This document shows positions 15,011 to 31,148 of a stretch of 64,000 nucleotides of DNA, piece by piece. The DNA is from Pleodorina starrii (Eukaryota; Chlorophyta; Chlorophyceae; Chlamydomonadales; Volvocaceae): positions 2,114,501-2,178,500 of the forward strand of contig BRXU01000004.1 of the NCBI GenBank assembly GCA_030267565.1, in the 5' to 3' direction. The position numbers and the translations under genes are program-made. Numbering within the stretch: position 1 is the stretch's first letter; each line of letters starts with the position of its first letter. Under the pieces are notes generated by a model. That model worked only from the letters and a program-made list of their open reading frames with translations. It was not told the DNA's origin and searched no databases.

Positions 15011-15932
15011 CCAAACCGATATATTTGTATATTACTGTCATTGAAAATGAATAATACTCCAAGTGATGCCGTATGCCTCGGAAAGTGGAAATGGTGTGCC
15101 GGTAATGCGGTTAAGTCGAGTCTCCAGTAGCCCCAGCAGGCAGCAGCACCGTGAAGTCGGATGACGAATAATTGAGTACCACTAGCACTTTGGTTTGTGT
15201 GTGATCGTTCGGCGTCCTGAAACATTATTTTACCCAGCAGACCAAGGATAGGGCCTTCCCAGTCAGTCGTCCAGGTCAGACGACGGGGTTGGGCCTTACT
15301 TCAAGGTCAAGACGTTGGGAAATATTCCACAATATAAGATACTTCTACTGCCCTATGCACACTGGATAATATTGGCTTGTACGCACGGCGCCGTGGACGG
15401 TTCTATGAACCTTAGCCGGGAGCGAGTAATGCCTGCTATCCCAAGGCCTAGGCCGGTTGCTAAGTAAATCAATGAACGAGCCATGCATTTCAGATCTCCA
15501 GCCTCCGATGGCCCTCTTGCAGCTGGCGTTATCGTCCGCCTACCTTGCCTGTTTTGGCCCAACGGACCTCACGGCGGACAGCGGCCCTGATAGGCAACCG
15601 TTATTTATAATTACTTGCGTGCTCGCCCACCCATGTCGCTTGTTATAAATAACTCCTGAATACTAATTGGTATGTGTGGTACGTCCATACTCTGGAAAAA
15701 AGCGAGCAGCAGGTCTAGATTCCGTAATATGGGATGACTATTTTGCGTTTCTCCAGAAGGTGACTATGTGACCTTTACACTGGCGTGTTAACGGAGAGTC
15801 TACGAAAAGTCTATTACGGAGTTTAAACTGCATATTACGGAGGAGTAGCAGCCCAAAAAACGGTACTGTGGGTCGTCCCTTATACCACGGATGCGCCGTT
15901 TCCGGACACACTATATATGGTACAGTGACCAA
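15011..15932. other. No gene seen; inverted repeat at 15600-15653
   Basis: AT-rich sequence. GTTATTTATAA (15600-15610) and its inverse (15643-15653) form an 11-bp inverted repeat. Repeated TATTACGGAG motifs lie at 15810-15842. This may include the 5' part of the HUH element, whose left border I could not fix. Confidence 0.35.
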
Positions 15933-15993
15933 GGTACATAGGACCGGTATATGGTGCATAGGACCAGTCTAACGATAAAGGACCGGTGTATGG
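15933..15993 (+). promoter_or_regulatory. Iteron-like direct repeats upstream of the Rep ORF
   Basis: Three spaced copies of AGGACCGGT or AGGACCAGT: TACATAGGACCGGTATATGG (15935-15954), GCATAGGACCAGT (15956-15968) and AAAGGACCGGTGTATGG (15977-15993), at about 21-bp spacing. They lie about 200 bp before the open frame. HUH Rep systems often have such iterons as binding sites; the role here is inferred. Confidence 0.4.
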
Positions 15994-16268
15994 TTTCGGT
16001 GTGTATATGGCTTCCGAGAAGGTCGCATTAATTTACGGCAAGCACTTTGTCGTGCACGCTTTTTTGGACGAGCAAGTTGGCAAGGCTGGCCGCAACCGAT
16101 GTGCAGTATGTGTGTTGTTTCGGTGCGAGAATCTCAGAAAACTTTGGACGCAGTAATACAGGTTGCTGTTGCCGCTGATTTACGTGAAGTACACCGAACG
16201 TCATAGCCAACCTTAGCGGCGGTCCTAGCGGCCATGTTAGCGGGTTTCAGGGCCTCCTTGCGGAGGCT

Positions 16269-17010
16269 TTGCATCCCCAAGGTAACACGAGCGGTCTCGC
16301 CGGAGCATCAGCAGCCGGTCCAAACAATGGCGGCGGCATTCCAGCCACCTTCCCTATTGCGACCGGGTCTTCTATCACAAATCGTCACCTTGGCATTGGC
16401 ACGCTTGAACAGTTGCAAGCTTTGCAGCTTGCTCATCAGTCCCAAGCGCGTGTACAACATGCTGCCCAGCAAGCTGCATTGCAGCAGCAAGTTCGTGTCA
16501 ACCAACTGCAACTGCTTCAACAATACCAGCAGCAACAGAGTATGCAGCAGCAACAACAACTTCACGCGCTTATTAGCGGACGGCTTCTTTCAACGCAGCC
16601 AACCCCATCAACAGGGGCCGGTCCTCAGCACGGCGCAGTTGCTGCTGACAACAGGGATGGTGGCGCCGATTCAGGGACCGTTGCTGGCCGCGGACGCTCC
16701 GGCGGCGCCGACCCGGCTTCTGGGACGCGTGGACGTGGGCGTGCCCGCGGCCGCTCAGCAGTTGGGACTCCTCGACGGGGACGTGCCGCTTCTCGAGGTC
16801 GTAGTGGCCGGGGTGGTCGCGGCGCGGCACGTGTACGTGCAGGCGGCTCAGATGGCGACGACGAAGGTGATGCTGACGACCCTCTCGAACCTGCAGATGG
16901 GGCCGACATCGCAGGTGGTGTCGGGGCGTCAGATGAGGCCGATGACGTTGATACAGCGCAATATGGCGTGGCTTCAACGGCCCACCCCGGGCGCGATAAA
17001 GCCGACTTAT
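16269..17010 (+). CDS. Rep ORF, piece 1: Gln-rich, Gly/Arg-rich, acidic N-terminus
   Basis: Low-complexity but open in one frame. It has QQYQQQQSMQQQQQ, then RGRGRARGRS and PRRGRAASRGRSGRGGRG, then GDDEGDADD. The Gly/Arg part could bind nucleic acid or act as a nuclear signal (inference). The competing frame at 16234 is a shadow; only the frame beginning at 16269 joins piece 2. The piece is cut at the LINE target duplication. Confidence 0.65.
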
Positions 17011-20000
17011 GTGTGTGTGTTTGTTACATGGTTGGGGGTGCGTGCCCCTCTCATGAACAAAAGCCCATACGAGCCGAGGGCCCAAGGGAACTAAAACGCC
17101 TAAAAGCACGACAGTAGAAACACCGCCCATGCAGAAGAGGGGGATACTAGCGGCCAAAGGGGACAATTGAGTTGCGGTGGGCCCAAATGCGCTCAAGCAT
17201 CTTCGCCAAACGGGGAGGATCCCATCTCATCGCTTCCTCCATACCCTCGAATTGAGGAAACCCTTCATCCGCGCGGATGCTACTATAAGCAGGGCACTCC
17301 ATTAGGACATGCTTCTCGTCCTCTATTTGACCATCCGCAACGCAGCAGGGACATTTTCGCTCAGTCCTAGGGACATGAACTCTGCCCACTCGCGATCTGT
17401 TGGCCGCAACCGCCCAACAGCACAAACGAAACTGCAAAAGTTTGCGGTGGGCCGCACGCGGAATGAAAACGCTAGCATGCTGTGGCCACATAATTGCCGC
17501 TGCCCGCGCAAAGGGCATACCCATCCAGTGCTTATACTTCGCCATCTGAACTCCCGGCTGTTTCCCGTCCGAAGGGTAAGCCTCTGGCGGTACACTTAAA
17601 CGCTCGTGCTCCCACCCACTCATCAACCGCTCCCTCAGCGCTGTCACAATCGTTCCTTCGGGGAGTGGTTTACTTAACAACCAATCGATGCGGTTATCAA
17701 AACCACTGACGTCCTGCGGCATCCCACTCCAGATGTCGATTTCGAGATACGTTAACAACCGCAACACTGCAGCACCCCAGCCAGACCCAGCTGGGTCATT
17801 AAGTGCGTCGTGTATTTCCTGCCGCAGTACCGCCAACGCGAGAGAACCAGCCTGCTTTCGGACGCGATTCCAGAAACCAACAACCTGTTTGCCCATGTAG
17901 TACTGCAGCGGGAGCTGTGCCATTTCGGCAAACAGCAGCCGTTGGGCAGGCCTCGCCGCCCCCACAATCTGCCGCATAAAAATGACTTGTAGTTGAACCG
18001 CATCATCCCGCAAACAAGCTTCGAAAAGGCCCTCCGCTAGGTTGTTGTTATCACGACGCCTCCCAGAAGAAGCCCTTTCGAGCGCTTCTGCTATCACAAA
18101 CGGGCCCCACGCCTGACAGCCATACAACAGAATGGCGCGCACCTGGGTAGTGAAACACCGCATCCGAACATCAGCTGAGAACAACTTTAACTTATCAAGC
18201 TTGGCACTTAGAGCAAACAAGGCAGATCGCGCCGAATCACACAATTGTTGGCGGCAAGCGCAAAAAGATCGGTCGGGCCCGTACACCAACCCTAGGTAGC
18301 GCGCGCTGTCCTTGGCTGGTACGGCTTGCCCTGCAAGTCGAAGTTGCGCATCACACGCCGTGCTAATTTGAGACCGCAGATCATCGCTGCACGCAAAGAC
18401 TAACCTTTCACACTTGGACACATTGGGTCGCATTCCAAAAGCCACACAGAACAGATCGACAAGATTAAGGAGCTCTACCATACACTCCGGGGAGGTCGCA
18501 AGCAAACTAACGTCGTCAGCATACAGCAGGATGGAAACGCACTTGCCACCCACGAGGGGAGTCTCGTGCTTACGCGCTCTAGCGTTCACCACGTCATGTA
18601 CATCAATCAGGTCGGCAAGCGTTTCGATGAAGAGCCCAAACAACTCGGTGGAAAGGGGGCACCCTTGTTTCACACCCTGCCGTGACTCAAACTCCCCTCC
18701 CACACTCCCATTTACCTTCACCACCATGGACACCTTCTCGTACGCTTTCTTCAGTGCCGCCAGCATCGGCCCTCCAACACCGTCTGTAATCTTGAGGGCC
18801 GTGTATAAATGGCAACCCCGTGTAATAAATGAGGGAAAATTTGACACCGTTTCAACACGGCTTGTGTTTGACACGGGGCGACACGGGCTGTTTCAACACG
18901 GCTCGTGTTGGACACGGGATCGACACGGGCTGTGTCAACACGGTCCCGATTATACATGACGAATATAGCCGAAGCACACGAGACGAGTGCAGTTCACCTC
19001 TCCCAGATGCTCACAAGTGACTAAAACGGCTCATCCGGGCAGGCAACCATATGCCCCACACCCGCGCCACCCGCCCCCACACCACCCGACGGCCCATGCC
19101 CCGCCCATGCTCCGCCCCCGCGCCACCCGGCAGCCCCGCCCCTGCGTTACATGACGGCCCCACCCCCGCGCCACCCGACGGCCCTGCGCCTGTCGGTGTT
19201 ACACGACGACAGCCCAGCCCCCGCGCCACCTGATGGCCCCGCCCCTGCACCACCCAAGCAAGGGCCCAGCCCCCGCGCTACTTGACGGCCCATGCAGCCC
19301 CTTTTTTCTGTGGGGGACGTCCCGGGAAGTCACAGAGCCCAAAAAGCAGGCCGCGCGAGCAAGAACAGCAAGCCGCGCCATTTGGCTAAAAGCCCAAACC
19401 ACCAAAGGGAGCCCTGTCCCTAATCTAATATCGTATATGGATGTACCATTGCCCTTTGCTGGTGCGTATCCACATAGCAGGCGGTAGTAAAGCGCCGAAC
19501 CAGGACGGCACTTTGAAATTTTCGACGCCAAAGCAAACGAGCCCAAAGCCACATCATGCGTGGCGCGTTTTAAGGTGGTGGCACGTGTTGACAGAGCGCA
19601 AATCTCGGGCATAGCGCCAGACTGTAGAGATATGGAGGCCATGGATACTTCATATAACCACCATATCACATTTCATGACTACACGATTCTGGTTTTGTCA
19701 TATTTAGAGCTTGCGTAAGGTATAGTTCACATTTCAGGCAGAAAAGGTCTGAGGCAAAAAAGGACAACGTTCCTGAAATCCTTTCTGCCACATAGAATTA
19801 CGGCATCACCATTTTCTGCCTCAAATGTGAACTATAACTAAGAGTTGGGCAAAATCAAGGCGACACTGAAATCCTGACACCAGAGAACATTGTTAGCAAA
19901 AAGTAAACGTCAAGCTTGCTTGTCAAAAACAAGGTATACTCAAGTGTGGATGTTTAGAATCCAGGTTTACTTCGTCGGGGTGGAGGGTGAAGCGTGAAGG

Positions 20001-23000
20001 TTGTAGACGGCGTGCCGTACTTTGCCCCAATCCTGGGGCAACGTACGACAGTGGTTTAGAAGTCGCAGCTTGACTGCATCACGAACAAAACTCGAATAGC
20101 ACAGGTCACGGCCGCGAAATGAGCTACTGATACACTCGACTTCTCTTAATAAGAAATTTTAGTATCCGAAAATTGTCACGAAAGTTTGGGCTGGCTTAAT
20201 GCAACCCATGCCTGAACTCTTTTTTTACTCAAGCTTATAGATAAATAACTTAATAGATAATACTAATACTGCATTTCTAGATACAATGCGCATGTGCGAA
20301 GTTCTGACCGCGGCAACAACCGGTCAGCATTCGGCCTTGGCTGCCCAGACGCCCTCACCGAGTTCGGTACAACGCTGACAATGATGGAAGGTGTTGCTGA
20401 AGATAAGGCAGGAGTCGTTAGCCTTGTCGGCGGGCCCGGGTTATGCTCGCCGAGGAGCGCATGCTTTGGCACCGGCGGACGCACGCTTGCCCAACGAGCA
20501 CGGACCGCAACGAGGAACTACTTACAAAAGTTCGCTAATAGGATTGGTGATGCATACGACGTAAAGCGTGTGCTCGAAAATTTTGTTATGTTTTGTGTTC
20601 AACTCCAGGTCATCTGTTCTTACCAGAAGAGGAGAATGGCTTAACCTTATCCTATTGATGAGTGCAACCCGCAGGCTGCACATCGGGGCTGGGGCACACA
20701 CTCAGGCGGCCTGGGCAGCGAGCAGCTCGGAGCTAGCGGCCGGGAGAGGTGTCAGCGGCCCGCTCGAAAGTGACCCCTCTCTTGCAGACGAAGCCACATG
20801 TGCTCACGCGGCACTTTATCAAAAGCCTTTTCGAAATCAATCTGCACAACGATCAATGGCTTCTCCCCAGCACGCCTATGGCGCGTAGTGAGATGCTGCT
20901 TGACGAAGAGATGATGCGAGGTACCGAAACCGCGCCTGAACCCTGCCTGACTCGGGTGACGTAGAGCCAGTTGCTCCCCGGCCCTCACAAGCCGGTCGAG
21001 GAGCACTGCCGCGTAGCACTTTGCCAGCGCCCCTCCTACTGCGATTCCCCTATAATTCCCCGGCACCAACGGATCGCCTTTCTTAAGCAAAGGCGTGACC
21101 ACTGTCTTCGTGAACTGCTGCGGGAAATCGCCCGACGTCCTGATATGCTCCATCAAGACATGGAGCACCGGAACGACCTGGTTGACCTCGGGTCCGGGCC
21201 GCCCCTCCCCGTCAACAGTCCGCACGCGCGCGTAACGATAGCACTCCGATGGTACTTTTTCCAGTCCCGGTGACTTACTATTTGGCAGCTTCCCCACAGC
21301 ACGTGCCACCTCCTCCAACGAGAAAGGCTCGTCTAGTATGCTAGCCACCTGCGCCTTCCTGTCCGCGATTGCCCGAGCTGCTTGCCACACTCCATTCTCA
21401 AGACTATCCCCTAAAAATGTAATATAATTCAGGAGCCGGTGTGCCCCCTCGACGCCCGTCTCCCCAACCCCTGCGTTCAAAAGTGACGCAAAATGCTCCT
21501 GAAACACCTGTATGTCCTCAATAGCACAACGCTCCCTAAGCTTCCCGCCCAAAGCACGCCATAGAGCACGCTGATCATATCTGCACTTCGTCACGAACTC
21601 ACGCATCCGCTCCTCATCGTACGCTGCACGCGCGAGCCGTTTCGCGCGGTTAAAAGCACTTCGCGCCTCACAGAAAGCAACCCACAAAGGCCCAGATTTG
21701 TTCAGTACTCGGCCGGCCCCAAGCTGCGCCCGAGCCACGAGCATGCGCTGACGGGCCTGTTGGCAATCCGCGTTCCACCAGATAATACCCTCTCCAGGTC
21801 GCATGCCTGCAGGCCTGTGCCCCGCAAAAGCGCGGGTCATTACCTTCTGCAAGAGCGACCCAATGCGATCCACGGCTGCCGTGCTATCACATACGCCATT
21901 CTGCAAATCACCCGCAATCTGACTGAGAACACTCATGGCGTGGGACCCCTCGGCGAAATAACGTGCATAGTCCCGGTACCGGGCGGCATCAAAGACGACT
22001 CGCCTTCTCCGTGGTGGGCCTGCAGCGCCTGGTCGGTCACAGACTTCAGCATCTAGCACAAGGGTCACTGGGCGGTGGTCTGTTGGTTCCCACCCGTCCA
22101 AACTGAAAAGCTCCCCAACTCGCATCCACGTGGCGCGACGAAAAGCACCAATTGATCCAACGAAAAGATCAATCATACTTCCGCCGGCTTCTCCCTTGGG
22201 GAACGTCAACCTTCCATCCCGATCTCCCTGCACTCGGCCATTAAACACGAGCAGGCCTTGCGACCTGCATAGAGCCCCCAACTGATGACCAAAGAAATTG
22301 CAGACGGCGTCTTCACTCTTGCGATTCGGCACCCCCTCAAGGTCTTCAGGCCCTGCGATACCTGGCAAACCCACGAACTCATGAAGTGCAGCTAGTTGAT
22401 CTGAGTCGGCCACATCGTGTACGTATGCTGGGAGATCCGCGGGTGAAGACCTGTGCCTTTCCCGCTCGGCACTAGCAAGGCGCGCGTTGAAATCACCTGC
22501 CAACAGCACGTCCTCCCCTTCCTCCCTTAAATCGGTAATGCCTTGCTGAACTCTCGCGAAAACAGTCTCCGCCGCTGATGCGCGTTGCGTGCGTGTATGG
22601 CCCCCCGAAGGGTAAACTCTTGACGCCTCGGGTGCCAGATAACAGGCTCCAAACAAAATACTGCCCCCCGATGCAAGCCAAATACGCACCCAAAGAATCT
22701 CACACCCTGGGAGGTCATTGTCCTTGCGAACAGTAGTAACCCCGTTGAAGACTGACTCCCTCACGTACAATACCACTCCACCGTAGTCTGCACGAACGGC
22801 ATCTCTGGATCTCTGCACTCGCAAAAGGCGAAAGCCCTCGAGGAACACACTGCTATCAGGAATGGAATCCGTAAGGTGAGCCTCGGTAGCGATGATGATG
22901 TCGTGACTAGTCACAAAGGCTTTTATCCCCAAACGGTCGAGCTTGAAAACGCCTCCTTCCAACAGACCGTGCACATTCCAAAGCAGGACTCGTAACCCTC

Positions 23001-26000
23001 GGCTCGCGTGATCCTAAGCTTGCTCCAATTCGATCTCACCCAGCCCCTCCAGATGCGTGTACGGGTTGGTGTGTGTGCCCGCCGCGGCCTGGCCTCCCCC
23101 CCAACGATTCCCTGCGTGCCCCCCGCCGCCGTTGCCCGCTGCTTGCCCATCACGTCCAACCCCGCTGCCGCTCGCCCCCTGCATACCGCGCTCCTCCTCC
23201 GCACTGCCCCGCCTGGCAAGCACTCTGTTCCACCCATCTTGCTCCCTGCTGATGCGGCCAAGTGGTCCGGGTCGCGGGTCGCGGGGGGCCAGCGGAAAGC
23301 GTTGCGCCTGGTCCATTGCGCTGGGTGCGGCTGCGTAAGCGAGCCCGACGACTGGCTCTGTGCCGCGCGGGTTCTTGGGCGCCTTCGGCTTCGACGCACT
23401 CAGGTGCTCCACCGGAGGTTCTTTGTTCTTGTTGCCGAACGTAAGAAGTTTCGGCGGCGATGGTGTCTGCTGCGGTTGTTGCGTCCGCGGGGGTGGAGGG
23501 GGAGGTGGTGGAGGGGGCGGGGGGGGCAGCGCTGCGGCTGCCGCCATCGTCCGTTGCACAGCAGGGGGCGCCTGGCCTGCCCGCGACGCCGTGCCGGTGC
23601 CTGCCGCCACGCCTGCCTGCTGTACCGCACCTGCCAGCGTCCCCGCATCCGCCCGTTCAGCTGCACCGGTATTCCGTTGCTCCATGCCGGTAACCGCCGC
23701 CCTTGCTGCCTGCTCTGCTGACCCGATGTCCCCCATTTCACCTGCCTGCGGTGCCGCCCGGTTGACTGCCGCCACGCCCGACTGCGGCGCCTCGCCCCTG
23801 CCTTCAGCCGGCGTCCTGCCATTTTCAGTGGCCCCGAAGCTGCCCGCCTCGCTCGCTGCCCTGCTGGGATGGTACGGCTGCAGCGGGGTCCCGTTGCTGG
23901 ACCGGTAGTACAGCTCCGCTCCGTTGCGCCAGCATGCGAAACACTGGTGCTCCTTGATCTCCCTCCACGCTTCTCTCAGTCGAGACCTTTCGGCCTGACC
24001 GGCGCGCGTGAGCGCGTCGTCGACCCTGAAGCCGTGCGGGTCCCTGAGGCTGCGGCTCGCCGTAAAAAACTTCAGGCGGTCCCTGTAGTCGATGTCCACT
24101 CTCCATGCTTTTGTGGCTCGCTCCGATTGCCCCGGCTTGCTGAGCTGTACTAGCTTTGGCTCTCGCGACCTAACGAGCTTCAGCGAGTATAACACGTCGC
24201 TGACCAGCTCCTCCGTCGCATTGTTGTCGGTAATGATAACCACCGCGTCCAGATAGTGAAAACCATTTGGGGCGACAATACCGCGGTCCGTGAAGGACGC
24301 CGCCTTTTGGGGGCGCTCGCATTCCAGTCGCTGCACTCGTTCCTTCAAATCGTCGTTGGAGGCCTTAATAACACCTACGTCCTTATCGAGCTTTATGATG
24401 ACTGATTCCAGCCGATCATACCGCCCGAGCATCTCTAGGATGATGCCATTGGTTGCTGGCCCGTCCGGGTTCGCCTGTGCTCGCCGAATGTGCTCACTTG
24501 GAATATTCATACTTGTAAATTGCAAAACGTAAACCTTGTGTTACTTTGACCGTGAGGACTCCGGACTGTTGGTGGGCATGTTAAGTCTAGTCCATGTGTG
24601 TGCTATTGTGCTATTGTGCTGTTGTGCTATTGTGCTATTGTGCTATTGTGCTAGTGTGCCATTGATGTATCCTGTATCCTGCTATTGTCGACTTATACCC
24701 ATTGACAGAGTGGAGTTTGACGTTGTCGCAGCGGCGCGCGGATGTCCCGAAATCGTGGGTAACTATCATTGGCAGTTGGATCCACAATCATTGCGACGCG
24801 GGGTTCGTCGCGTATGAGCGCGGTACCCGCAATGAGCGGGGTCATTTGCAGGGATGTATTCGGCTTTACTGGCCCACCCAGCGGGCGTTCAAGTCTCGTC
24901 TAGTGGCCATTCTGAAGGGCGTTCTAGGCGTTGTCGTGGGCGATGGGAGCTCCTTTGTGGTGAAGCCGTTCGCGCGCGAGCAGTCGTGGTTGGCGGTGCT
25001 TGGCTATTGCCAGAAGGACATGGGCCTGTCGCACTATCATTTTGCTCGGAAGGAGTGTGATAACGCTATGTTGGCGGAGGCGCGTGCACAGTACCGCGTG
25101 GTGGGGCGCAATTACCGTGGTGATCGCCGTATCATCACACGCAAAGAGTTCGGAGCGGAAGTGGTTGCTTTCTACCAGCAGCATGTAGTGTCAGGGTAAA
25201 TCAGCGTCACTGAGAAACTGGCGTCGGGCAATTTCAGTTGAGTCCGTTAACGAGGCGGTTGGCGACGAAGCGCCAATCGTTATTGCTGTGAAAGCCGTAT
25301 TTATTGTCTTTGTGAGCATCCTGGATGTGGCTTTACGACGACTACGTCGGAGCTTTGATAGGATGGCTCTAGGGACGTCGCCTGTGTTGTGTCGGAGGGG
25401 CCTTATGAGCTGGCCCTGTATCAGTCCGAGAGGGCGCTGTTAGCGTCACCTTGAGGCATTGTCTGCTTGCAGCTATGCAGGGGTTACCCTACCCCGTAGA
25501 GCCCTTGGCTCTCGGGCGTTGTTTGTAGTGCGTTAGAATGTAGTTTTGGCGCCATGCATGGACCTCGGCCACCGGCAGGCTCTGCTGCTCATCCTGTAAC
25601 TAGTCCGTCTGAGCTTTGCCAATGTGAACTCTGGACATAGCCAAACAGCACGGTCGCCTCGCGGCTCATCAACGGCAGCCGTGGCGCTGGGGGACGCCTC
25701 AATGCCGCCTCTGCGTGCTGCTCGACACTCGTCGCTTCCGCCGCCGTCTTCTGCCTACTTCCTGAGATCTTCCGACAGTCAGCGTGCCCATCAGATGCTC
25801 CTTCCGTTTAGCCGTGTCATGGACGTCACCGTGGTTGGGGAGCGAGGCGCCCAGCGGGCGATGATCGACGTCATCGTCCGTCCTCCTCGGCCTCCCTCCC
25901 CTGTGCGCCACTGCTTTGCCTCAAGGTGGTGGTTCTAACCCACCGTTTCTACTCATTGTGACGTCAGAAGAAGCTTTCGATGGGCATCGCGTGAACATTG

Positions 26001-28918
26001 CCGGAGCAAGCATGCGGACCAAGTTCTTGATCGAAGCGCGATGCCGGCCGCCGAAGTAAGCTGGTGATATAGTGCTTTACAGACGGCGAATTTGGCTTAC
26101 AGTATGCAGCAGAGCTTGGCCCTAAGTTGTTTTGCGCAGTAATACGCGGTGTTTAGGTAGATTACTGATGTTATCAGCTGTGCGCGCAAAGTCTATTATT
26201 TTGTTTTGGTGATATCTGAGATGCCGCTTCGAGCACACTCATGATGGCCCATGGGCCGTTACATTCCAACCGTCGTTGCCGGCCCAACGGTTCCCGCCAT
26301 CCAATACGCGAGTGTCCAGCATGCCGCGTTTAGTACTGCGCACTGCCGCTTTTAGCTCACCCTCGCGTCTGCGTGTTGAGTCGAGTCGAAGCAACGAGGT
26401 CGGATATCTGGCCGTACACTTACTATCAACGCCTCGTTCCATCATATCAAATTAGCTGCCGGAGCAAAGCCCGCGCCATTAAAGAGCGACTAATGGGCAC
26501 GCCCGGTATGTTTGGGGGGATGGGTTGGCTGCCCGAGACTAAGCCACTGACGTACACTCTCCCGTAGCCGGATCTGCGATTTCCTTGTTTGCAGTCGGCG
26601 CGCTTTTCAGCCCGACATGCTTTATCGCTGGAACTCCTCCGCCTGTCGTGCTGGGGGGGAATGGGGCGCGCCGTTTGCCGCAGTGCAGCGTGGTAGCTGG
26701 CGCCCTTCGTATCGCCCGTAGGCAGCCCCACCCGTTGAGAGAGAGTGCCTCGCGTTCATTTCACAGCCGTCGCAGTCGTTTGTTTTGAAGGTGAATACGT
26801 CAAGTGATGCTGTTGCCGGCCTGTCCTTGGCCTGAACTGCTGGCGCCCTTCGGTCCTGCGTATCCAGCGCGCCGCAATTAGTATTTCGCACGGCAGCATT
26901 CCTGCCCGTCGTCACGGCATGCGTGTTGAGTTATGGCAAAGTTTGGTGGTCGTGCATCTGGCCGTACAATGCCTTTCGACGCCTCGTTAAATCAAATCAC
27001 ATTAAATGCCGCAGCAAAGCCCGGCGTTCAATCAAATCACATTAAATGCCGTAGCAAAGCCCGCGCCACTAAAGAGCGACTAATGGGCGCGCACGGCTTG
27101 GGGGAATGGGTTGGCTGCCCGAGACTAAGCCGTTGACATACCCGTGCCGTTAGCCGGATCGCGACACCTTTGCTTGCTGTCGGTGCGCTTCAGCCCGACA
27201 TGCTTTATTGCCGGGGCTTTTCCCGCCTGTCGTGCTTGGAGGGACGGTGCGCGCCGTGTGCCGTACAGTGCAGTCGCTGGCTCCGTTCGGTCCGTAGGTT
27301 TTCGTGCCGCATAAGGCATAGCATGCGTGTCTTCAGTTGTACCCCGTTGCACGGCTCGGCGCCTTCGTTCGTTCATCCCTAGCCCGCTTTGCTAGCAAGC
27401 TTCGGTCTGGGGGGGGAGTGAGGCGCCTACGTGGCCGAACCGTCCCACCGACGGCCGTTTACCCTGACAGCTGTCAGGGTAAATCAGCGTCACTGAGAAA
27501 CTGGCGTCGGGCAATTTCAGTTGAGTCCGTTAACGAGGCGGTTGGCGACGAAGCGCCAATCGTTATTGCTGTGAAAGCCGTATTTATTGTCTTTGTGAGC
27601 ATCCTGGATGTGGCTTTACGACGACTACGTCGGAGCTTTGATAGGATGGCTCTAGGGACGTCGCCTGTGTTGTGTCGGAGGGGCCTTATGAGCTGGCCCT
27701 GTATCAGTCCGAGAGGGCGCTGTTAGCGTCACCTTGAGGCATTGTCTGCTTGCAGCTATGCAGGGGTTACCCTACCCCGTAGAGCCCTTGGCTCTCGGGC
27801 GTTGTTTGTAGTGCGTTAGAATGTAGTTTTGGCGCCATGCATGGACCTCGGCCACCGGCAGGCTCTGCTGCTCATCCTGTAACTAGTCCGTCTGAGCTTT
27901 GCCAATGTGAACTCTGGACATAGCCAAACAGCACGGTCGCCTCGCGGCTCATCAACGGCAGCCGTGGCGCTGGGGGACGCCTCAATGCCGCCTCTGTGTG
28001 CTGCTCGACACTCGTCGCTTCCGCCGCCGTCTTCTGCCTACTTCCTGAGATCTTCCGACAGTCAGCGTGCCCATCAGATGCTCCTTCCGTTTAGCCGTGT
28101 CATGGACGTCACCGTGGTTGGGGAGCGAGGCGCCCAGCGGGCGACGATCGACGTCATCGTCCGTCCTCCTCGGCCTCCCTCCCCTGTGCGCCACTGCGTG
28201 AGGCGCCTACGTGGCCGAACCGTCCCACCGACGGCCGTTTACCCTGACAGTAGCGCCATTGGAGCTGCCATTCGAGCAGGTGGTGTGGCACATGATTCGC
28301 AGTGGCAAGTATGTGCCCGACCATGCATGGCTGCTTCCATCTGCTGGACGCGGTGTTGATATCGCCCGGGCACACGCGTTCTTCGAGTGTGTGTTAAGGC
28401 CTGAAAGCGTGACGGTTGTTGATGTGGCAACGGTATTCTTCGAGCCAACATACCGCACAATGCTGCATACGCTGCGCTTAGAATGGGAGTACGAATTCGG
28501 TGGGGAGGCAGGCTATGATCACAACGATATGAAGCATCGTGAGCAGCGTGATTACCGGGCCCGCATTGCTGCTCGCGCACGCCGTGGTGAGTCTGTTAAC
28601 CCCGAAATAAAAGAGATGCCGTGGGATTTGCCTGAGGGGCATGTTGCTCGGATGGGCGAGGCTGTGTTGGATTGGCAAGCGGTTCAGGCTGCCGTCCAAA
28701 ACACGCGCGGGGGTGACGCGGAGGTCCCCGTTGGTGTGGAGGTTGAGGTGGGGGCTGATGCAGTGGTATTTGCAAACGCCCACGACGAGGACGTTGCACG
28801 GTACGATGCGGCCGATGATTGGGTGTCGTTTCAAAACGCACTTGACGAGGCTGCCGACGCGCGCGGTATCAACCCAGATGACGATCCCGGGTATGGACGT
28901 TACATAGACATTACATGA
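16269..28918 (+). CDS. HUH (Rep-type) endonuclease ORF of a mobile element, split by two insertions
   Basis: One reading frame in three pieces: 16269-17010, 24697-25188 and 28254-28918, total 1899 bases with the final stop. The frame is open from 16188; no ATG lies in the open stretch before 16269, so the start or an upstream exon is undetermined. Residues are numbered from 16269. Residues 30-105 are Gln-rich, 120-190 Gly/Arg-rich, 190-235 acidic. The Rep core follows: WSLTLSQ (motif I-like, 24711), GHLQG (HUQ metal site, 24840-24854), YCQKD (single catalytic Tyr and Lys, 25005-25019). The C-terminal 220 residues are charged, with no Walker A motif, so no helicase is seen. Insertions at 17011-24688 (TSD CGACTTAT) and 25189-28249 (TSD GTAG) inactivate this copy. 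It converges on an RPA-like gene 7 bases downstream. Confidence 0.75.
17147..18781 (-). CDS. LINE ORF2, C-terminal part (reverse transcriptase core to zinc motif)
   Basis: Begins in the RT domain at GGPMLAALKKAYEKV and contains RQGVKQGCPLSTELFGLF, ILLYADDVSLL (catalytic Asp pair), a long thumb region and CPCCVADGQIEDEKHVLMEC, a CCHC-type motif common near LINE C-termini. The frame is offset from the upstream part by exactly the length of the 1991-bp insertion. Stop at 17147. Confidence 0.85.
   Translation of the reverse strand, partial: GVGGPMLAALKKAYEKVSMVVKVNGSVGGEFESRQGVKQGCPLSTELFGLFIETLADLIDVHDVVNARARKHETPLVGGKCVSILLYADDVSLLATSPECMVELLNLVDLFCVAFGMRPNVSKCERLVFACSDDLRSQISTACDAQLRLAGQAVPAKDSARYLGLVYGPDRSFCACRQQLCDSARSALFALSAKLDKLKLFSADVRMRCFTTQVRAILLYGCQAWGPFVIAEALERASSGRRRDNNNLAEGLFEACLRDDAVQLQVIFMRQIVGAARPAQRLLFAEMAQLPLQYYMGKQVVGFWNRVRKQAGSLALAVLRQEIHDALNDPAGSGWGAAVLRLLTYLEIDIWSGMPQDVSGFDNRIDWLLSKPLPEGTIVTALRERLMSGWEHERLSVPPEAYPSDGKQPGVQMAKYKHWMGMPFARAAAIMWPQHASVFIPRAAHRKLLQFRLCCWAVAANRSRVGRVHVPRTERKCPCCVADGQIEDEKHVLMECPAYSSIRADEGFPQFEGMEEAMRWDPPRLAKMLERIWAHRNSIVPFGR
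18840..18955. repeat. Degenerate GACACGGG / CAACACGG repeats
   Basis: Short motifs GACACGGG and CAACACGG recur in both orientations within about 115 bp, suggesting binding sites or a decayed minisatellite at the end of the inserted element. Confidence 0.5.
19050..19310. repeat. GC-rich degenerate minisatellite
   Basis: Repeated variants of CCGCGCCACCCGACGGCCC and CCCCGCCCC. The ORFs across it are compositional artefacts. Confidence 0.55.
19721..19836. mobile_element. 116-bp MITE-like inverted repeat
   Basis: TATAGTTCACATTTCAGGCA (19721-19740) is mirrored by an inverted copy ending at 19836; about 28 bp pair with few mismatches. TA at each end could be the target duplication, as in Tc1/mariner-type MITEs. 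It lies inside the 1991-bp insertion. Confidence 0.6.
20773..23013 (-). CDS. LINE ORF2, N-terminal part (APE endonuclease and start of RT)
   Basis: Open directly after the ORF1 stop. It begins with SRGLRVLLWNVHGLLEGG, then IIIATEAHLTD and FGACYLAPEA, typical AP-endonuclease motifs, and later LLAGDFNARL and DHRPVTLVLD (catalytic Asp/His). The RT start follows: SPGLEKVPSECYRYA, VVTPLLKKGDP..NYRGIAVGG and VVQIDFEKAFDKVPREHMW. Broken after LQERG by the 1991-bp insertion. No ATG near the start, consistent with translation by read-through from ORF1. Confidence 0.85.
23014..24510 (-). CDS. LINE ORF1 protein
   Basis: About 498 residues from ATG at 24510. The N-terminal part has a coiled-coil-like stretch (SVIIKLDKDVGVIKASNDDL) and a region resembling the RNA-binding domain of LINE ORF1 proteins; CFACWRNGAELYY follows, then low-complexity Ala/Gly and a run of 13 Pro (about 23495-23535). 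Ends ELEQA then TAG; the next codon GAT opens ORF2 in the same frame. Confidence 0.78.
   Translation of the reverse strand: MNIPSEHIRRAQANPDGPATNGIILEMLGRYDRLESVIIKLDKDVGVIKASNDDLKERVQRLECERPQKAASFTDRGIVAPNGFHYLDAVVIITDNNATEELVSDVLYSLKLVRSREPKLVQLSKPGQSERATKAWRVDIDYRDRLKFFTASRSLRDPHGFRVDDALTRAGQAERSRLREAWREIKEHQCFACWRNGAELYYRSSNGTPLQPYHPSRAASEAGSFGATENGRTPAEGRGEAPQSGVAAVNRAAPQAGEMGDIGSAEQAARAAVTGMEQRNTGAAERADAGTLAGAVQQAGVAAGTGTASRAGQAPPAVQRTMAAAAALPPPPPPPPPPPPPRTQQPQQTPSPPKLLTFGNKNKEPPVEHLSASKPKAPKNPRGTEPVVGLAYAAAPSAMDQAQRFPLAPRDPRPGPLGRISREQDGWNRVLARRGSAEEERGMQGASGSGVGRDGQAAGNGGGGHAGNRWGGGQAAAGTHTNPYTHLEGLGEIELEQA
24595..24665 (+). repeat. 8-bp tandem repeat in LINE 5' UTR
   Basis: Seven to eight copies of GCTATTGT with single variants. 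In element orientation they lie upstream of ORF1, where LINEs may carry promoter repeats. Confidence 0.6.
24697..25188 (+). CDS. Rep ORF, piece 2: HUH endonuclease core
   Basis: Contains all three Rep motifs (WSLTLSQ; GHLQG; YCQKD) in the order and rough spacing known from rolling-circle Reps: about 44 codons from I to II and 54 from II to III. A single Tyr in motif III places it with Y1-type enzymes rather than the Y2 Helitron RepHel. The piece starts immediately after the LINE target duplication and ends at the GTAG duplication. Confidence 0.78.
25189..27469. mobile_element. 2281-bp TIR element in the Rep ORF
   Basis: TIRs TGTCAGGGTAAA (25189-25200) and TTTACCCTGACA (27458-27469). Together with the shorter copy next to it, it is flanked by GTAG (25185-25188 and 28250-28253). 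The middle holds an imperfect tandem duplication of about 490-530 bp (26330-26800 against 26870-27330). No transposase is recognised; non-autonomous. Confidence 0.75.
26330..27330. repeat. Imperfect tandem duplication inside the TIR element
   Basis: Landmarks such as AAAGAGCGACTAATGGGC, GGGTTGGCTGCCCGAGACTA and CAGCCCGACATGCTTTAT each occur twice, about 530-600 bp apart. The ORFs here are shadows. Confidence 0.6.
27472..28249. mobile_element. 778-bp deletion derivative of the same TIR element
   Basis: Its first 726 bp equal 25189-25914 almost exactly and its last 52 bp equal 27418-27469, so it is the longer element with 1503 bp removed. The two copies are head to tail and separated by only GC (27470-27471). 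Confidence 0.8.
28254..28918 (+). CDS. Rep ORF, piece 3: C-terminal region
   Basis: Continues the frame after the GTAG duplication (PLELPFEQVVWHMIRSGKYV onward). It has basic (QRDYRARIAARARR) and acidic (NPDDDPGYG) stretches and no Walker A or helicase motif. Stop TGA at 28916-28918. I recognise no known domain. Confidence 0.65.
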
Positions 28919-28925
28919 ACTTGCC

Positions 28926-30767
28926 TTAGTCATCGGCGAAGTCGCCGGTACGGAGGCGCTTGAGCATGCGGACGCGGGGCTGCGGCGTGACGGGGGACGC
29001 CGGTCCGTTGACAGCGCCGGCGGCGCCCAATAGCTTCATCAGCATGACGTTCAGGTAGCCGTCCTTCTTCCAGATTCCGAAGACCGCCTTGTTGTTCCTG
29101 GTCTTGTCGAGCACCGCGGACTTGAGGGACTCGCGCTGCTTGGGGGTCATGCTGCGCTGGGCCGTCATGAAGTCGGTGCAGGACTTGTAGCCCGAAAGCG
29201 CGTTACCGGCGTTCTCGAAAATGCGTAGTTCTTGGCGGCCCGACGGCACGTCTACGTAGATCTTGATGACATAGACCGCCTTGGCGTTGGCGACCGTCAT
29301 CCTGCAGTGCTTGCAGTAAATGCCGCCGTCCTTCTCCACGCAGGGGTGCTCTGAACCGGCGATCCAGTTGCCGCATCGCCATTCGGTGATGTTGTTGACG
29401 CGGGCGGGGATGGCCGCTCCACGCAATATGCCGACCACAACGTAGTTGCCATCAGGCTTTCCGACCAGCGATTCGAAGGGGGTGGCCGAGGCGATGTCGT
29501 CGTAGTGCACCGGGTTGATCTGCGGGGTTGTATATGGATGCACGTAAAAGTGGTCATGGTGGTGGGTTCAAGTGTGGGTTCAACTGCGGGTTCGACTGTT
29601 GGTTGAAGAGTGTCTTTAAGTGTGGGTTCAAGTGTGGGTTCAAGAGTGGGTTCAACTGTGTTGTCAATTGGACCACCGGGCGTATGGAATTCGTTTGGGC
29701 GGCGTGCAAAACTCAACCCCGGTCATTTGTTGCCTTCGTAGTCACCCCTAATAGCCGCTTACTCACCCCCAATAGCGGCTTCATGGCGGTGCAGTGCTTG
29801 AAGAGCTTCGCGGCGGAGAATTGCTCCTCGGTTAGGAAGCTCTCCAGGTCGGCGTCGCACCAGTCCGTGCCCGTGACGGATCGTCCGCGCAGGTTGAAGG
29901 AATCACGGAAGTACGCAGCATCGCAGCGCAGCCCGACAAACAGGACCAAGCTTCCGACCTTGGGCAGGGTCTTGTCGGCGTCATTGCAGGCCGCCACCGT
30001 AGCCGGCGACAAGAAGATCTCAACCGTCTCCGCTGCTGTCACCAATCGACCCGCCCACGCGGCCTTGTCCTGGCCAACCAAGCCGCCGCTCTCCAAGTGG
30101 CCAATAACGTTGTAGCAGTTGTTTGGCCGCATGTCGCGCATGTTGGTCATAGGCAGCGTCATATCAGTGACGATGCAGGTTGGGGCCGCCTCCTGGACTT
30201 CGCTTTGCTTGAGGACTTTTGCGGTATCATCAAACAGCAGCCGCACTTTGATACTTCTGGCGCAAGCGACGTTGTAGGTCAAGTCGGGCGGGTCCAGCTG
30301 CAGGTTGTTAATCTGAAGGTAGCGACCCCGAACTGCGTCATTGAGGAAAGATTCATCACCTCCTTGGACGTGTACCTGAATATAGGTTAAACGAGCACAG
30401 ATCGCGTGACCGGTGGGGGCCGCAACAAACATTCAAGGCCATGGCGCGCAGATGCACGGATGTTGGAAGGCCGTTTAGCCATGTATCGTGGATTGCCATG
30501 TGGCTGATCAGCAGACATATCCATCAGTGTGTGTAGGCGTTGTGCCCGATGTTAACCGCATACTTAAGCGACGTCATTCGAAATGCATGGACTCACGTTG
30601 AACAGCGTGTCGTCCGCCGCCCGCGTCTGGAAAATCGTCCAACCTAGAGCATCCGCGTCGCTGGTGGCGAGGATGCGTACCACAAGCACTCCAGCGTGCA
30701 AGCCGTCCCAGTCGGCGATCTCGGCACCGCAAAACAACTGCAGGTCGGTCGCTTCGTCGCCGGCCAT
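28926..30767 (-). CDS. RPA70-like single-strand-binding protein gene, three exons
   Basis: Exons 30767-30597 (ATG, 57 residues), 30375-29767 (203) and 29519-28926 (197 plus stop TAA) total 457 residues. Donors GTGAGT at both introns; acceptors ATTCAG and CCGCAG; all junctions phase 0. Exon 1 resembles the first strands of an OB fold (ADWDGLHAGVLVVRI). Exon 2 has GGDESFLNDAVRGRYLQINN, like the RPA70 DNA-binding repeat. Exon 3 has WRCGNWIAGSEHPCVEKDGG then IYCKHC, a four-Cys ribbon like the RPA70 C-terminal domain. It should bind ssDNA. It runs convergent to the Rep ORF with 7 bases between stops; a TGTAA polyadenylation-type signal (28911-28915, minus strand) overlaps the Rep end. It lacks the RPA70 N-terminal protein-interaction domain. 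Confidence 0.72.
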
Positions 30768-31148
30768 GATGTTGTATACTTTCAAATTCTAAGTTCAGAA
30801 AGAGTTTCTTGACACCCCGCCATGGCCACAACACACAGAAGGTCTTCAACCGTCGTGCATTGTCGTGCAACTTTTTCACTTTTCGGGCCTTTGTGGTACA
30901 CCGCGTTTATGTGCGTCTGTGTATCTGATCTGCTTACCGATACACGCATACTCAACTTTGCACCGTTGTGGCCGTTTGTTACCGACCGCTAAGGCTCTCG
31001 CCCCTATGCATGGGGGCGAGCCAATACCGTAAACTGCACCGCCGCGGATCCAGACCCCGAGAGGTATATCCATTACGATGGTAGTGAAAACCACCGATTA
31101 CGTGACTGAAAGAATCCTCCCAAGTGGCTGCCTGAGGTACTTAGGTGG
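30768..31148. other. Upstream region of RPA-like gene; possible right end of the HUH element
   Basis: No gene. A hairpin at 30993-31022 is the only structure seen. Confidence 0.35.
30993..31022. repeat. Strong hairpin near the possible element end
   Basis: GGCTCTCGCCCC pairs with GGGGGCGAGCC around a TATGCA loop, with one bulge. Helitron-type HUH elements have a short hairpin close to the 3' end; whether this marks the terminus is not shown. Confidence 0.4.

Follow-up and report, generated by a model that had tools for sequence, protein, structure and literature searches.

A Replitron in the green alga Pleodorina starrii with a convergent, likely RPA-like gene

HUH enzymes nick a DNA strand through a tyrosine and rejoin it at a target. 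The question raised by a locus in the colonial green alga Pleodorina starrii is whether a transposon with such an enzyme also carries its own gene for a single-strand DNA-binding protein. The locus lies within a stretch of 64,000 nt (contig C4, 2114501-2178500; hereafter the window) of a genome of 136 Mb in 95 contigs. For this species, the available part of the genome paper gives 95-288 contigs across three strains, with RNA sequencing backing the gene models (PMC10256686). The reading favoured here, at a probability of roughly 0.65, is that the element is a Replitron with convergent genes for a predicted HUH-type Rep and a likely RPA70-like protein, the latter coating the strand that Rep would cut free. 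The features of the locus, in window coordinates, are as follows.

15861..15994, no strand: left half of the short repeat that received the Replitron; outside the element
15995..30926, ends approximate, no strand: Replitron with two nested later insertions; ends common to three relatives (L075-L077), surrounding repeat found without Replitron at L007
15999..16106, plus: 5' terminal segment, 95-96% identical in the three dispersed 1.87-kb relatives
16188..17010, plus: N-terminal part of Rep, open as a reading frame from 16188; Q-rich at first, later Gly/Arg-rich and acidic; remnants in L075 and L082
17011..24688, minus: LINE with endonuclease and reverse transcriptase, inside Rep; CGACTTAT on either side (17003-17010 and 24689-24696)
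24689..25188, plus: Rep HUH domain (Replitron_HUH, Pfam PF21859; WSLTLSQ, GHLQG, YCQKD)
25189..28249, no strand: DNA transposon in the Rep gene, 3061 bp, ends TGTCAGGGTAAA/TTTACCCTGACA, flanked by GTAG at 25185-25188 and 28250-28253
28250..28918, plus: Rep C-terminal domain (Replitron_C, Pfam PF21860) and stop
29519-28926, minus: RPA-like exon 3 (Rep_fac-A_C-like, four cysteines; gene model, annotated protein); remnant in L082
30375-29767, minus: RPA-like exon 2 (gene model, annotated protein)
30767-30597, minus: RPA-like exon 1 (gene model, annotated protein); remnants in L075 and L082
30852..30926, plus: 3' terminal segment; identity to the three 1.87-kb relatives 80-82%
30927..31022, no strand: right half of the short repeat, including its 3' hairpin; outside the Replitron

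Element ends and later insertions

The Replitron is placed at about 15995-30926 because L075-L077 share its ends and L007 has the surrounding repeat alone. At L007, the short repeat (231 bp) stands at a like site with no Replitron, and at another locus, L006, the flanks are present with neither the short repeat nor the Replitron. On comparison of these sites, the Replitron is an insertion into a short, older repeat. The boundary at 31022 belongs to the short repeat: the region around the right end has matches at 40 places, 36 of which match the short repeat only (33 of these to its end) and three of which match the Replitron side only, to 30926/30927. The span of 15933-31022 claimed in the initial annotation takes in the older repeat and gives way to the narrower one. 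The alignment of copies that it had proposed yielded shared termini, the 3' end being common to four relatives and the 5' end to three. The heptamer TGTGTAT occurs at both ends of the Replitron, and also at those of L075-L077; a repeat of 7 bp is reached in 193 of 2000 pairs of shuffled ends. The longest inverted match between the ends is 6 bp, and no clear repeat that would suggest a target duplication was found on either side of the window copy or of L075-L077.

At present the element measures 14,932 bp, or approximately 4,181 bp when its two insertions are subtracted. Both insertions break the Rep gene, and each is flanked by a target repeat, the larger being a 7.7-kb LINE and the smaller a 3.1-kb inverted-repeat transposon. 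In the latter, the left part is near-perfectly repeated (25189 onward and 27472 onward) and the right end is also doubled (27418-27470 and 28198-28250), an arrangement suggestive of a self-nested element.

The surrounding repeat (15861-15994 plus 30927-31022) belongs to a family of short dispersed repeats (L051-L074). Copies in which both ends could be located range from 231 bp to ~1.1 kb; the family has its 5' end, near ACTGCGGCTCGCCCC, in common and carries the 3' hairpin GGCTCTCGCCCC...GGGGCGAGCC. The dinucleotide AA directly follows the repeat in 22 of 23 relatives (L052-L074), four of the 23 being tandem copies with identical flanks. These four (L058-L061; C24:1679148-1691576) are regularly spaced at 4117 bp and form a long tandem array. 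The short repeats may be non-autonomous elements belonging to a different HUH transposon.

The Rep gene and its convergent neighbour

When Rep is read through both insertion sites, 659 codons are open from 16188, with the sole stop at the end. The motifs WSLTLSQ, GHLQG and YCQKD all fall within a plus-strand ORF at 24666-25199, as had been claimed for a Rep-type ORF. The frame first marked at 24697-25188 is thus real, but its end is not its own, the frame being broken by the transposon at 25189-28249 and having no stop there. In the profile search suggested by the initial annotation, the Rep ORF matches the Pfam model Replitron_HUH (E 1.5e-34; 119.6 bits against a cut-off of 28.5), and the frame that resumes at 28250 scores 65.8 bits with Replitron_C (cut-off 27; E 4.7e-18). 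Because both Replitron domains match, the Rep of the window element is, by its domain content, a Replitron Rep; of the two classes initially offered, 'Replitron-like or new HUH family', the former is retained and the latter dropped. The three Rep pieces contain one YxxK and, in a motif search with the pattern G....GK[ST], no Walker A, in agreement with the single catalytic Tyr and missing Walker motif noted from the outset. Nor did the Rep pieces match a helicase domain in the Pfam scan. Relatives of Rep are found elsewhere: P0004 (589 aa) has both Replitron domains, is 48% identical across 59% of the query with GHIQ and YCQKD conserved, and P0003, on a short contig from another organism, is 54% identical over 60% of the query.

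The neighbouring gene, on the minus strand, is modelled with three exons joined at GTGAGT donor and CAG acceptor sites; it is intact over 457 aa, and its product is identical to the annotated P. starrii hypothetical protein PLESTB_000449400. Its stop at 28926 is separated by 7 bases from the end of the Rep stop at 28918, such that the two genes converge exactly as first described. Tandemly repeated 12-bp units (GTGGGTTCAAGT and variants) lie at 29550-29681, at the end of the intron upstream of exon 3.

The case for an RPA-like product is drawn mainly from exon 3. Against 24736 Pfam models, exon 3 matches Rep_fac-A_C (PF08646) with E 2.7e-4 and 21.2 bits, below the cut-off of 28.5, and the whole protein matches the same model with E 8.6e-4. 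The four cysteines of exon 3 are placed much as in the zinc ribbon of RPA70. Two fold models of the product are both poor (mean pLDDT 31.2 and 41.5). The latter, a low-confidence model of exon 3, orders its strands and helices as an OB fold does, and RPA is named in rows 3-6 of a Foldseek search with it (E 0.061 to 0.086, TM ~0.2). No RPA is found among the VIA-align 2 rows for this model, and searches of PDB sequences with the protein returned nothing. A relative in another organism (P0002, on a short contig) is 59% identical over 44% of the query. Considered together, the product is held to be RPA-like with moderate confidence and is likely, on its predicted sequence features, an RPA70-like single-strand DNA-binding protein. 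The RPA70 OB fold and zinc ribbon initially ascribed to it are plausible, but with a Pfam match below cut-off and low-confidence folds the kinship is weaker than was worded. A search of the genome with Rep_fac-A_C places the likely host RPA gene on contig C5, as opposed to the element on C4; the RPA-like gene was therefore not found to be a single-copy host orthologue. A second genomic match to this domain besides that on C5 lies at C3:8160942-8161043.

Decayed relatives and linkage of the two genes

Four relatives of the element, all decayed and all from the one P. starrii genome, bear on whether the two genes belong together. Three of these (L075-L077, on C18, C24 and C34) are dispersed elements of ~1.87 kb that are >99% alike, L076 and L077 aligning to L075 along 1866 and 1870 bp with an identity of at least 99.5%, and with immediate flanks that differ from one another. 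The fourth, L082 (C24), shares the Replitron 3' end, and its 5' end is absent among the matches to the window 5' segment. The high identity of the first 108 bp (15999-16106) to L075-L077 falls to ~60-80% in the remaining aligned parts, which may reflect either selection acting on the 5' end or ends having been exchanged. Two more, weaker copies of the 5' segment follow it in L075-L077.

Linkage was assessed region by region for L075 (standing for L075-L077) and L082, with 200 dinucleotide shuffles each. For L075, none of 200 shuffles was as good for the Rep N-terminal region, the HUH domain, RPA exon 1 or the exon 1 leader; for L082, the same was true of these four regions and of exon 3. Regions not detected, with the share of shuffles that did as well, were exon 3 (9/200), exon 2 (40/200), the Rep C-terminal domain (12/200) and intron 1 (56/200) in L075, and exon 2 (60/200), the Rep C-terminal domain (174/200) and intron 1 (17/200) in L082. 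In both relatives, the Rep remnants (plus) and RPA-exon remnants (minus) are in the window's order and strands, and exon 1 adjoins the common Replitron 3' end; the exon 1 donor GTGAGT is still legible in L075. At the protein level, again against 200 shuffles, the HUH signal is above in both relatives, the RPA signal is above in L082 (30.8 versus 25.8 bits) and below in L075 (22.7 versus 26.6 bits), and the Rep N-terminal signal is above in L075 (31.6 versus 28.9 bits) and below in L082 (27.7 versus 35.0 bits).

Since pieces of both genes survive in unchanged order in the decayed relatives, Rep and the RPA-like gene have likely travelled together. The initial proposal of a two-gene unit with an element-encoded SSB-like gene is upheld, in that the gene lies between the shared ends and both L075 and L082 retain the pair in the same order and on the same strands; a pattern in which Rep copies never occur with the RPA-like gene was not found. 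Genome searches with the HUH domain, the Rep C-terminal domain, exon 2 and exon 3 each list the window as the sole place. Because these searches missed known decayed pieces, there may be further decayed copies. Nowhere did the genome searches list RPA exons apart from Rep sequence, but decayed copies can escape them, as the exon 3 remnant of L082 did.

Proposed mechanism, alternatives and related transposons

By analogy with HUH enzymes in general, Rep would nick one strand at the element end through the tyrosine of YCQKD. The strand would then be opened or copied by host replication, a reliance suggested because no helicase motif was found in Rep. The element's RPA-like protein may coat and protect the freed strand until Rep joins it to the target. 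The spread of L075-L077 would require Rep in trans because their own Rep is decayed, and only one trans-acting candidate was found, a Rep from the lineage of the window copy, which has the 5' end in common with them. These 1.87-kb relatives may thus have been moved by the Rep of a fuller copy. That the three are >99% alike suggests recent movement.

The RPA-like gene might instead be a passenger, picked up once by the Replitron lineage and with no role in transposition. Relatives that are missing most of the RPA gene have nevertheless reached three near-identical copies, such that an RPA gene of their own was dispensable for them. Against this, the RPA-like frame is intact across three exons, the gene predates the split of two element lineages here that are now ~66% identical, and P0002 represents a 59% identical relative elsewhere; in addition, the available part of one report credits Helitrons with at least three gains of such genes (PMC4683698). 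A passenger gene is accordingly considered unlikely. A different possibility is that the second gene is Replitron-borne but encodes an accessory protein other than RPA, its likeness to the RPA C-terminal domain being due to chance. The single, sub-threshold Pfam match, the two poor fold models and the lack of RPA in the VIA-align 2 list are all compatible with such a protein. Chance is harder to reconcile with an E of 2.7e-4 across 24736 models, with the RPA70-like spacing of the cysteines and with the OB-fold order and Foldseek rows obtained from the low-confidence exon 3 model, and this alternative is regarded as improbable.

It is also conceivable that Rep and the RPA-like gene derive from two adjoining elements, for instance a Helitron-derived RPA gene beside a Replitron Rep. 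Such genes are common in plant Helitrons, according to the available part of the same report (PMC4683698), and eight Helitron_like_N matches are listed in the genome. None of the eight listed matches is on C4, however, and the position of exon 1 against the common Replitron 3' end in both L075 and L082 makes two adjoining elements very improbable.

The preferred reading of a Replitron with its own RPA-like gene can be set beside other HUH systems. The Rep motifs, of the HLQ and YxxK kind, resemble those of CRESS-DNA virus Reps; unlike in those Reps, no Walker A was found in the Rep pieces, and the Pfam matches are to Replitron models only. The 3' end is taken not to be of the Helitron kind. 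In contrast to Helitrons, the window Rep has Replitron domains, one YxxK and no helicase motif, and a RepHel fusion was not encountered. Replitrons are described as occurring in green algae at sizes of 0.9-4 kb; they are without TIRs, end in direct repeats of 5-11 bp and duplicate 2-8 bp of target (PMC10741241). The window element is similar in having both Replitron Pfam domains, no helicase motif found and a green-algal host. The lack of long inverted terminal repeats and the 7-bp direct repeat near its ends would fit that description, though shuffled ends also yield direct repeats of this length. Its size, ~4.2 kb without insertions (4181 bp), is close to the cited 4 kb maximum and slightly above it. 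The convergent RPA-like gene is an addition to the description. With plant Helitrons and animal Helentrons that carry RPA, as described in the available part of one source, it shares the combination of an HUH transposon with an accessory RPA-like gene, and the existence of decayed non-autonomous relatives with common ends (PMC4683698).

The element is provisionally considered a novel Replitron variant with an element-borne RPA-like gene, in parallel to the reported capture of RPA by Helitrons on at least three occasions. No Replitron with RPA was found in the literature searched, which did not include the founding description of Replitrons (Craig 2023, doi 10.1073/pnas.2301424120). Even odds are given to a broader interpretation, in which Replitrons would have acquired a single-strand coat of RPA type for themselves, in an event separate from those in Helitrons, the coat would replace the missing strand-handling part in a helicase-less Rep, and protection of single-stranded DNA would be a recurrent need of eukaryotic HUH transposition. 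As a compact two-gene system in which no helicase motif was found, the element would be suited to testing the role of a single-strand DNA-binding protein, and recent movement is suggested in a culturable alga for which the available part of the genome paper describes three sequenced strains (PMC10256686). A Replitron with an RPA-like gene would show two classes of HUH transposon converging on a single-strand DNA-binding protein of their own.
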